Assembly: GCA_900095095.1 (NCBI GenBank)
Contig: FMBT01000305.1
Span: 186,001-250,000, forward strand
DNA: 64,000 bases
Source of the DNA: Fragilariopsis cylindrus CCMP1102
Taxonomy: Eukaryota; Bacillariophyta; Bacillariophyceae; Bacillariales; Bacillariaceae
Direction of reading: 5' to 3'
Every line of letters begins with the position of its first letter. Within the stretch, counting starts at the first letter, position 1. Positions 34,189-38,526 of this stretch are shown piece by piece. A program made the position numbers and the translations under genes. The notes below the pieces were generated by a model. That model was given only the letters and a program-made list of their open reading frames with translations, had not been told where the DNA came from and made no database searches.

Positions 34189-37100
34189 ATGGGAGACTTC
34201 TACTCACGCCGACAAAGCAATCCTTGTGAACCGGACGAGGGACCAAAATCCCTCCTACAAAGGAGAAACGAGAAACCACCCGTGAAGCTTGCGTCCACCA
34301 TCCATACTAGTGCGTCGTACCGCCCTGATATTGATGGACTTCGAGGATTTGGTGCCCTTCTTGTAATATGGTTCCAGTGAGTCAAAGTTATCATTTTCTT
34401 TTACTACATTAGATTGGACGAGTCTTGTCACGGAAACATAATCTCACTAATGATGTATCTTTTTTCGTTCTTACGTATCCACAGTTTCCGTGAAACCTGG
34501 AACAATTCGCCCTATAAAGGTGCAGACCTTACCAATAGCACATTCTTTGCAGTATCGGGATTTGTTATCACTCTCTCTGTGCTTCGAGCTCGTGCAAGGA
34601 ATCCAGATCCAATCATCAATGCATCCAATACTGGCGGATTTGCTGTAATATTCTCTGTCGTCGCCTCCAGCGGCTTGTAATGACACAGCTTTTTGTCACT
34701 TTTATTACTATGTCAATATTCCTTGCTACATTGTACCCAGGACCGCGCTTATTAGGAATTATCAGGACAGCACAGTACTCAGTCATAGGTGGGGCTAATA
34801 TTTACTTTGGCACAAGGAAAGAGAAAATTCCTACATATCGGCGACCGTCACAGATACCAGCCTAGCAAAAAACCCTCTTATGCACACATGGTATTTGGGT
34901 GTTGAAGAACAAGTATATCTTTATATCCTTGGATTTTTGCTGTAGCTCATTTATATGCAGCAAGGTCGAAACAAAGTCCGTACTATGTATTTGGTGTAGT
35001 GTTCCTGGCATCTTTCACATGCGCGGTAATGGCGGACGCAAACAACCCTTCCAGTTTTTTCTTGCTGCAATACCGCGGTTGGGAGTGATTGTGGGTGTAC
35101 TCATTTGCCATGCTTTGATGTACTCAAAATGCTTCGGAGGCATTAAACAAAGGACGGAAGCATCCTTCGAAATAATGTGCTTTATTGGCCTCAACTCTCC
35201 TTTGTCGTCTTAGAGAGTGTAGCATTGTGGCTCTTTCAATATCCAAAGTATAGCTTAATATCCACGATATTTGCACTTGCTGGTACAGCTGTCTTCTTCA
35301 TTTCAGGTCATGGGTACAATTGGAATTTGATCTACAGTCAGAGCACCAGCAGGAAAATTGATTTTCGCAGTGAGGTGCCACTGTTAAACTACTTTTACGG
35401 TCTCACATTGCATTCCTACGTTGGTCGACTTTCGTATGCAATGTATCTTTGGCACTTTCCTGTGGCAGTTTTATGTGCCGATTTCAAGGAAGAAATCCAA
35501 CAACTGATTGGGACTACTGACACCGTAGCCTTCTCTCTCCAGCTTTTGCTAATTACGATGGTCTCCATATTTACACATCATATGGTTGAAAATCCATTCC
35601 GTTGGTGGAAGCCTTCAAATCAGTACTTACCTGCTCTATGTATACTGATTTTGGCTATGGGAATGGAGATCTGGCTGTACGGCATCATGCCTCAGGTAGT
35701 AAAGGGGGCACAATTAAACATCCTTGATATAAACATGCTTGATGGTCTTCTACCAGTACCACCTATTTTTTCGACAGCAAAACTAGCTTTTTTGGTCACT
35801 GCTACTGCTGTTGCACCTGCACTAGTGATGGCGATTCGTCTCCCCAAGACGTGTCATTGTAACAAGTCAACAACAACAACTCTATCTTTGTGGTTAATAA
35901 TTCCTCTTTGCTTGTTTCTTTACGAAAACAGTTTACGAACCCAACAGCCACTTATTTCTGCGATGAGTACATCAACCACTAAAGGAAATGCTGGAAACCT
36001 GCCACTTGGAACATCAGTAGACAAGAATGAATCTACATTCTGGAATTGGGGCGGGGGCACTCATAGCTTTGCCAGCTTTGGCTGTGCTTGTCATCATGTT
36101 GGCAATGCGAGGGCCCCGCCAGGTGCATCAAGTAGTGATACGATGCTACCACTCTGTTACGACCCAGTTCATTGGAATGATGAGCATCATTTTGCCTATG
36201 GGGAGGATGACAAGCGAGACAAATGTACAATTGGATTTGGTGCTGAGCAAATTCACATGAGAAATGATGTAAGTTTGACGGCAGGCGAAATCTGGAAGCT
36301 GTGCCGTGAACCAGGACGGCTCAAGACAGAATCCACACCCACAGCCTTTGTTGTTGGTGGTTCCGCTTCTGTGCGCTTACGTGTGGCTGTGGCAAACGCT
36401 GTTGGTGGTGAATTCTCTGTGTTAGGGTATGGGATAGATTTGTTTAACGAGCCTGAACACTTCAAGTTACTTGATACCACTGATGGGATAGGGATGACGA
36501 ACAAAATTCACTTTGATAGAGACTCTGCTAGAAAAAAAACATCTGGCCAGATTAATGAGAATAAACTAAGGGAATTGGGCAAAAAACTTCAGTATGTAGA
36601 ACGTGTCGGTCAGCTTCTGGACCAACATCTTGGGAAAGGAGATCTGTTGTTTTTGACATGGATGCCACCAAGTCTAGAGATCAAGGAGAAGAAGACAAAG
36701 ATTAAAGAGCAACTGGCTGGTTTTATCCGCCTTGGTGAAGTGCTACATTCTCGAGGTGCCACACTTGTCCTGACAACGGGTCATTTATACAACATGCCGA
36801 AGGTACGTTTTAGCAATACAATTGTACTGCGATTCTTATACTTGATCCATTATATGTATATCTAAGGTTTATTTGCTTGTGTGCTGTGTTTCTTTCTAAT
36901 GCTCTAAATGATTGCTTGATCGATTGATCACAAATAAAATACCACTATTGAATATCAGGAGTCAGCAAAAGATGGCTTTGTGGAGGATAGTAAATCATTT
37001 TTAGATCGACAAAAAAGATACGAGAGACTTCTGCAAGATGCTTCAGCTCAAGCACCCGGGAAATCTATTGTTCATTGGCCACTAGGAGAACAATTTTGCG

Positions 37101-38526
37101 GAGATACTACATGCTCACGCATGATAGCGGGAACAAACGAGACAATCGGTAACATTCACCAACCCTCAGGAATGTATGATTGGTGGCACCCAAGTATTCA
37201 GGCAGAGGCATTCCTATCACCCTTCCTGTGCTCTTTCCTTGATAGCCACAAGTTGCTATCAGCGGAGGTCAAGAAACCTGAGGAATATAACCTTGAATTC
37301 CGACACGATATAAAAGAACTTGATATGACCAAAATACGAGCGGGCGCGGACCAATTTGTTTTCAAATTATTTCGCCTCCCCACTCATCTGCAACTTAGTG
37401 CTGTGACAGCATTTGTTTCTGAATATGAACCGCTGTCACATAAGAATATTGTTCACCATTCTGCTTTATATGCCTGTACAGAATTCCCAAAACAGGCTAA
37501 AGCTTTGGAAGAATCATTCTCCACTCCAAATAATCCTTCAGGTAATGGTGGTCTTAAAAAGGTCTGCGGACGTACAATATGGACACAAGGAATGGAAGGC
37601 CCTCCAATTGAATTCCCTTTGTCATCTGAAAACGAGCAGATGGCTGTTTTCGTAGGTAAGTAAATTATTTTTCATTTCATTGTTGCGTCAATCTCCTCTC
37701 CTCACGCTTTCTTTCTTTCTTTCCGATTTTGACTCATTTTTCATGTTTGAAGACACTGAGTATGTTCTCTTAGAGTTCATTATAAGGCCCCGGAAGCTGA
37801 TGAAAACGATGTTTACAATACTGGTTAGTATCGGATTATAGTGGCTTGAGTGCAACCTTTATCTCGCAAAAAGAAGCTAGCCAATTAGGCACAAATTTCA
37901 AGTATATCCAAATGACAATAGTTGGGCCACAACTTGAAGAAATGCTCACCTTGCCACCCGGTAGAGACCAAATAAAAATTACTAGTGCGTGTCCAAGGGA
38001 ATGTTTTAAAGAGGCCCTTGAGAGTGAAAACAAAACCAAGGTTGAGATCGTGGGGTATTTACCCCATGCTCACTTCGCGGCAACTGCAGCGTACGGGGAA
38101 GTCCTCCATCACAATCAAAAGAAAATTACTCCTATATCTGTCACACCTAATTTTACTGAGTACATAGAGCAAGGCGAGGAAGCGACATTTTTATCCCAGC
38201 CTGTTGAGATTACAGCAGACGACACAGTGAAGTTCACATGCGTTTATAATACTAAAAATCGGACGCATGTTACAACTCTTGGTATTAATACGCACGATGA
38301 AATGTGCATGATGATTTTGCTGATCTCACCACCAGTGCGTGATTTTGATTATTGCTGGCATAAAACTGCACAAGGACCAGAAACGGATTGCGTGGCGAAA
38401 TGTGGAGGCCATTCTTATCCGTCATTTTCATTACCTCGTGACAATACCAACTGGTCTTGGTCAGATCCTAGTGCCCAAAAAGCTCTTGGGGATGCATATC
38501 CTAGCTCCCCGGTATGCGAAGTTTAA
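34189..38526 (+). CDS. Three-part fusion: acyltransferase-3 + SGNH + copper type II monooxygenase
   Basis: Exons: 34189-34376, 34485-36802, 36959-37655 and 37753-38526, about 1,330 residues. Part 1 is an OafA/YrhL-like membrane acyltransferase: YRPDIDGLRGFGALLVIWFH, STFFAVSGFVITLS, TWYLGVEEQVYL, YVGRLSYAMYLWHFPV. Part 2 is its usual SGNH-like partner (STPTAFVVGGSASVRL ... YDWWHPSIQAEAF, Asp-x-x-His). Part 3 resembles DBH/PHM copper monooxygenases: HH pair in NIVHHSALYAC, LEFHYKAPE, HxH in GYLPHAHFA and Met in THDEMCMMILL, the six expected copper ligands. Introns join the parts directly. Roughly ten frame changes (34660-35200, 36050-36115, 37775-37830) each fit one missing base, mostly in homopolymers. 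The location is probably a secretory membrane with the enzyme parts luminal. Confidence 0.78.

Follow-up and report, generated by a model that had tools for sequence, protein, structure and literature searches.

A diatom gene that joins an AT3 acyltransferase, an SGNH-like region and copper monooxygenase domains in one coding region

In the diatom Fragilariopsis cylindrus, an AT3-type acyltransferase domain, an SGNH-like region and two copper monooxygenase domains were found to be encoded by one gene. Judged from its sequence, this fusion is real as a gene design. We read the locus as a protein-coding gene for one large enzyme with a predicted role in the membrane, and give the whole explanation, including the mechanism proposed below, a probability of about 0.55. 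The gene lies in a window of 64,000 nucleotides (the whole stretch analysed, C384:186001-250000, from an assembly whose 818 contigs total 67,884,144 bases), and positions without a contig name are those of the window. Three of the four other window frames compared with Pfam matched a family, namely Band_7, exonuclease and protein kinase.

The coding region extended on the plus strand from the ATG at 34189 to the TAA at 38526, as the first-pass annotation had it, and consisted of four exons separated by GT-AG introns. Exon 1 (34189..34376) contained the start codon, the N-terminus and the first part of TM1 of the AT3 domain, and its splice site was shared by a paralogue elsewhere in the assembly. 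The rest of AT3, extra hydrophobic segments and the first part of the SGNH-like domain were encoded by exon 2 (34485..36802). Exon 3 (36959..37655) continued from the C-terminal part of the SGNH-like domain into the copper domain without a break, and exon 4 (37753..38526) contained the end of the copper N-domain, the copper C-domain and the stop codon. Intron 1 (34377..34484, 108 nt), intron 2 (36803..36958, 156 nt, inside the SGNH-like domain) and intron 3 (37656..37752, 97 nt, near the end of the copper N-domain) had the same places in the paralogue, where their lengths were 104, 154 and 81 nt; introns 2 and 3 had been proposed before and were borne out. There is good evidence that the splice of intron 1 is real, since the join creates the histidine of the R-X10-H motif of AT3. 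When frame breaks were read through, the predicted proteins had 1,327 residues (window copy) and 1,321 residues (paralogue).

On the read-through proteins, Acyl_transf_3 (PF01757) scored 46.4 bits in the window copy (E 3.5e-12) and 55.5 bits in the paralogue (E 6.1e-15), compared to a gathering cut-off of 31, whereas the longest unbroken window frame alone reached just 12.2 bits. The weak AT3 score on single window frames, like the below-cut-off score of Cu2_monooxygen there, was due to the frame breaks and introns. Both copies contained R-X10-H in TM1 and RXXR in the first cytoplasmic loop, motifs that excerpts of a review name from mutational work on OafA/OafB and OacA (PMC9558356). The arginine of R-X10-H was encoded at 34342 in exon 1 and its histidine codon was formed by joining exons 1 and 2, while RXXR (within 34659-34673) and the AT3 stretch HTWYLGVEEQ (34883-34912) were both in exon 2. 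When a layout of ten transmembrane helices, plus an eleventh ahead of SGNH, was looked for by simple hydropathy, 14 and 13 segments were obtained that overlapped in part; at least one lay in a soluble part, and TM1 was missed. Contigs C459, C575 and C778 also encode AT3 proteins, each in one uninterrupted frame of 564-619 aa; these contain acidic inserts and differ from the fused gene.

The region between AT3 and the copper domains is a probable, not a proven, SGNH-like domain by its sequence motifs, and the weakest of the domain assignments. In both copies the Ser, Asp and His positions and a Cys pair before DxxH were found in SGNH order, with the GDS of block I replaced by GGS. The GGS serine was located at 36362 in exon 2, and the Cys pair (from 37097) and the DxxH (DWWH, 37178-37189) were located in exon 3. 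The first-pass annotation had assigned AT3, SGNH and copper monooxygenase domains; AT3, Cu2_monooxygen and Cu2_monoox_C exceeded their Pfam cut-offs, but no Pfam SGNH family was matched at E up to 1 by the window frames or the read-through proteins. In NCBIfam the best match was the SucT model NF058601 (E 5.2e-11), confined to the AT3 part, and the SGNH part was unmatched. A PDB search with the SGNH-like region returned one match, to an unrelated protein at E 0.48.

An SGNH profile was obtained from 174 AT3 frames at 160 loci of bacteria and viruses, chosen as the best 80 of at least 417 and the best 80 of at least 374 relatives. Of these frames, 145 had a length of 580-850 aa and contained both G[DN]S and DxxH suitably far from the end, and 125 non-redundant ones were used. 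Using hhalign, a two-sequence diatom profile aligned with these 125 AT3-SGNH C-termini at E 8.5e-5 and a probability of 60%, across the Cys pair and the DxxH end. The copper region, taken as a control against the same profile, gave E 0.089, and a comparison of the diatom profile with just nine bacterial and phage sequences gave E 0.072. In hmmsearch with the SGNH profile, the window segment scored 7.9 bits, above all 2,000 shuffles (maximum 3.9), and the paralogue segment scored below 15 of 2,000 shuffles.

By its Pfam domains and ligand residues, the copper part was assigned to the copper type II ascorbate-dependent monooxygenases and is predicted to hydroxylate. On the read-through proteins, Cu2_monooxygen passed its cut-off of 30 by a narrow margin (32.3 bits and E 1.3e-7 in the window copy, 35.8 bits and E 1.1e-8 in the paralogue), and Cu2_monoox_C scored 58.7 bits (E 6.4e-16) and 64.1 bits (E 1.4e-17), respectively, against 23. 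With unmodified single window frames, E was 2.9e-17 for Cu2_monoox_C and the score of Cu2_monooxygen was 25.4 bits, below 30. The copper domain started at about 37337 in exon 3. The six residues that we take to be the copper ligands had all been reported earlier from the window, and all were present in both copies: HH at 37454-37459 in exon 3, and in exon 4 the His of VHY at 37778, HxH at 38065 and 38071 and the Met of DEMC at 38302. Among solved structures, dopamine beta-hydroxylase (4zel, E 1e-4) was the best match to the paralogue copper region; the alignment covered residues 11-294 of 308 in that region, with HH, VHY, HxH and (D/E)EMC in register. Dopamine beta-hydroxylase proper has an N-terminal DOMON domain; no Pfam DOMON match at E up to 1 was found in the read-through proteins.

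The paralogue was located on contig C273 (12270-7839, minus strand) and was 75% identical to the window copy, with the same domain order. A DNA search of the whole assembly revealed no copies beyond these two among the best candidates scored. In addition to the three shared introns the paralogue had a fourth of 129 nt inside AT3 (C273:11469-11341, minus strand), absent at 34987/34988 of the window, indicating gain or loss of an intron after duplication. Stretches around 34760 and 36060 were about 98% identical between the copies on a background near 83%, possibly as a result of gene conversion.

Between the two copies, dN/dS was 0.40 for the whole gene (interval 0.34-0.47). By part it was 0.16 for AT3, 0.53 for the linker, 0.41 for the SGNH-like region, 0.62 for the copper N-domain (interval 0.37-1.02, not clearly below neutral) and 0.51 for the copper C-domain plus tail (interval 0.33-0.76). 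Identity was 88% in AT3 and about 63% and 62% in the copper parts. Together with the domain order kept at 75% overall identity, these values indicate that selection kept the reading frame over the whole gene, least clearly in the copper N-domain. Since a second copy has the same architecture under purifying selection, chance can be excluded as its origin.

In both copies, one exon encoded the end of AT3 together with the SGNH serine, and another the DxxH together with the copper N-domain. Separate neighbouring genes were rejected on these grounds. The first-pass annotation had placed the copper domain directly after the DxxH by means of exon joins; the copper domain does follow, with about 50 residues between the DxxH and the start of the Pfam match, but both lie in the exon 36959-37655, so that this junction needs no splicing. 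The domain order claimed there is upheld by the HMM matches, the independent paralogue and constraint over the full length, although its SGNH element is weakly supported by profile comparison. Structure prediction for two single-exon window frames without an alignment gave mean pLDDT values of 41.0 and 37.6 and was not usable.

As assembled, the window gene was not an open frame. The first-pass annotation, correct in span and introns, had missed seven frame breaks relative to the paralogue, five at 34650-35144 and two at 37774-37824, one of them just before the third copper histidine. Six were clear one-base losses; at the last, near 37824, the window copy was longer by five bases, and this difference has the same effect on the frame as losing one base and could be a gain. 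The paralogue had two breaks: one base was missing at the first of these and four bases at the other.

These breaks could mean that the window copy is a recent pseudogene with true mutations, and that only the paralogue, or neither copy, works. The seven breaks in the window copy and the two in the paralogue are in agreement with this, as are the neighbouring exonuclease and kinase frames, which look unbroken and thus indicate that errors are not everywhere. However, all nine breaks (seven single-base losses, one four-base loss and one five-base length change) shifted the frame as the loss of one base would. No nonsense substitution or internal stop was found in either copy once the frame was followed, and about 2.35 kb of window exon was open (35147-36802 and 36959-37655). 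Losses of the same kind were observed in a control gene encoding AT3 only, which is present on the near-identical contigs C575 and C312 (98.2% over 1,656 alignment columns): the C312 copy lacked a single base at seven places, always within a run of at least two identical bases, and had one in-frame three-base gap, whereas the C575 copy had no such losses. Matches to HSP70 (C693 and C70) and to a silicon transporter (C600) also changed frame in the middle of a domain, as far as match coordinates alone tell. Three HSP70 and two silicon transporter matches were nearly full-length and unbroken, and two full-length silicon transporter matches on C50 each scored over 755 bits. Because the C312/C575 pair shows the same kind of losses, assembly errors are the likelier cause of the window breaks, by about three to one in our judgement, and we regard the pseudogene as an unlikely, though serious, alternative. 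The idea that the breaks cluster where the copies are most alike, through failed polishing of duplicated sequence, was not supported: mean local identity was 0.861 at the nine break sites and 0.829 at random exon places, with 9% of draws as high. Near-duplicate contigs (C312/C575, C221/C498, C268/C581 and C90/C331, the last three pairs recognized by equal or near-equal match scores alone) are probably uncollapsed haplotypes.

No sign of the fusion was detected in the 160 bacterial and viral AT3 loci described above, in the plasmid matches or in 57 genomes from the phylum of one Myxococcales genome; the window's own genome was the only eukaryote searched. With flanks of up to 5 kb included, a copper domain was not detected near AT3 at any of the 160 loci, the best of 4,667 frames giving E 0.67. 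The full paralogue protein matched 319 plasmid records; no single place in any of them covered 80% of the protein, and among the 30 plasmid matches listed the coverage stayed within query residues 13-485, the AT3 part. An AT3-SGNH query, without the copper part, matched 56 phage records. The copper C-domain was detected in 3 of 30 AT3-bearing bacterial genomes (30 of 80 loci were taken; two matches were over the cut-off) and in 28 of the 57 genomes (27 over the cut-off). Among these matches the longest open frame had 876 aa, which is not long enough for the fusion, and no AT3 frame was found within short flanks of 38 copper C-domain loci taken from both genome sets. A degenerate-pattern search with the copper region gave 57 viral and 193 bacterial pattern matches, none confirmed as a relative.

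No paper on the combination of AT3, SGNH and copper monooxygenase was found in the open PMC literature, and the domain order may already be listed for other algae in domain-architecture databases. Excerpts of the AT3 review give SGNH as the commonest AT3 fusion and mention one to alanine racemase, and they contain none to a copper monooxygenase (PMC9558356). A study of genes acquired from algae includes a peptidylglycine monooxygenase whose affiliation is given as green algae.

The diatom protein shares AT3 with R-X10-H and RXXR with the AT3-SGNH acyltransferases (OafA/OafB, OatA and the mycobacterial SucT of NF058601), and its C-terminal region likewise has the Ser, Cys pair and DxxH in SGNH order. 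Unlike them, it continues after AT3 with additional hydrophobic segments, has GGS in place of GDS and is extended by about 365 residues that hold the two copper domains. Identity to the plasmid and phage AT3 matches listed was 23.9-28.5%, and the median AT3 frame in the 160 sampled loci was 662 aa, shorter than the diatom proteins. With dopamine beta-hydroxylase and PHM, the copper region has in common both Pfam domains, the six ligands and the near whole-length alignment to 4zel, but in the diatom it is preceded by AT3 and SGNH-like parts and has no Pfam DOMON.

By analogy with these families, the protein is most probably a hydroxylase-acyltransferase that acts outside the cytosol. Enzymes of the DBH/PHM class are active in the lumen of the secretory pathway. 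In AT3-SGNH proteins the acyl group is thought to cross the membrane via AT3 and then to be transferred by the extracytoplasmic SGNH domain, according to excerpts of the review (PMC9558356). The same side of the membrane would thus suit both the SGNH-like and the copper parts; this placement is by analogy, since hydropathy gave no clean helix count. From cytosolic acyl-CoA, AT3 would take an acyl group, which is probably acetyl, across a secretory-pathway or plasma membrane, and the SGNH-like domain on the far side would pass it to an acceptor hydroxyl of a glycan or glycoprotein. On that side, the DBH/PHM-type copper domain would use ascorbate and O2 to hydroxylate a carbon, either of that acceptor or of one next to it. 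Coupling would most simply account for the fusion, with hydroxylation first and acylation of the new or an adjacent hydroxyl afterwards. We suggest tentatively, as a possible rather than a probable activity, that a substrate outside the cytosol is first hydroxylated with copper and ascorbate and afterwards O-acylated by the same polypeptide, with an acyl group brought across the membrane from cytosolic acyl-CoA; a two-step enzyme of this kind is not known to have been described.

DBH/PHM enzymes are often soluble, and the spacing of about 50 residues after the DxxH would leave room for two enzymes from one locus, through a cleaved precursor or alternative transcripts, with the AT3-SGNH part retained in the membrane and the copper enzyme set free. 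Against this, DxxH and copper N-domain share an exon in both copies, and we consider such a split quite improbable. We find it just as hard to favour a non-catalytic copper domain that binds the acceptor or senses copper in an otherwise ordinary AT3-SGNH enzyme: the copper parts do diverge faster than AT3, but all six ligands are kept in both copies. For the preferred coupled enzyme, the first substrate candidates would be cell-wall glycans or glycoproteins, by family analogy; in diatoms, unusual modifications are found on glycans of the cell wall, on silica-associated peptides and on polyamines. Excerpts of the review state that few AT3 proteins of eukaryotes have been investigated and that what they acylate is not known (PMC9558356). 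A copper hydroxylase fused to AT3 would narrow the guess to substrates both hydroxylated and acylated outside the cytosol, and the fused gene offers a deletion target in a diatom.

A second unusual copper monooxygenase architecture was found in this diatom. At two loci (C91:974500-981500 and C303:155500-161500), copper type II monooxygenase domains occurred together with Temptin_C (E 5e-24 and 1e-24, respectively). Like the fused gene they encode both copper N- and C-domains (the N-domain below the cut-off on single frames), but they have Temptin_C in front and no AT3 in the frames scanned. One of the two also encoded a weak ShK domain.
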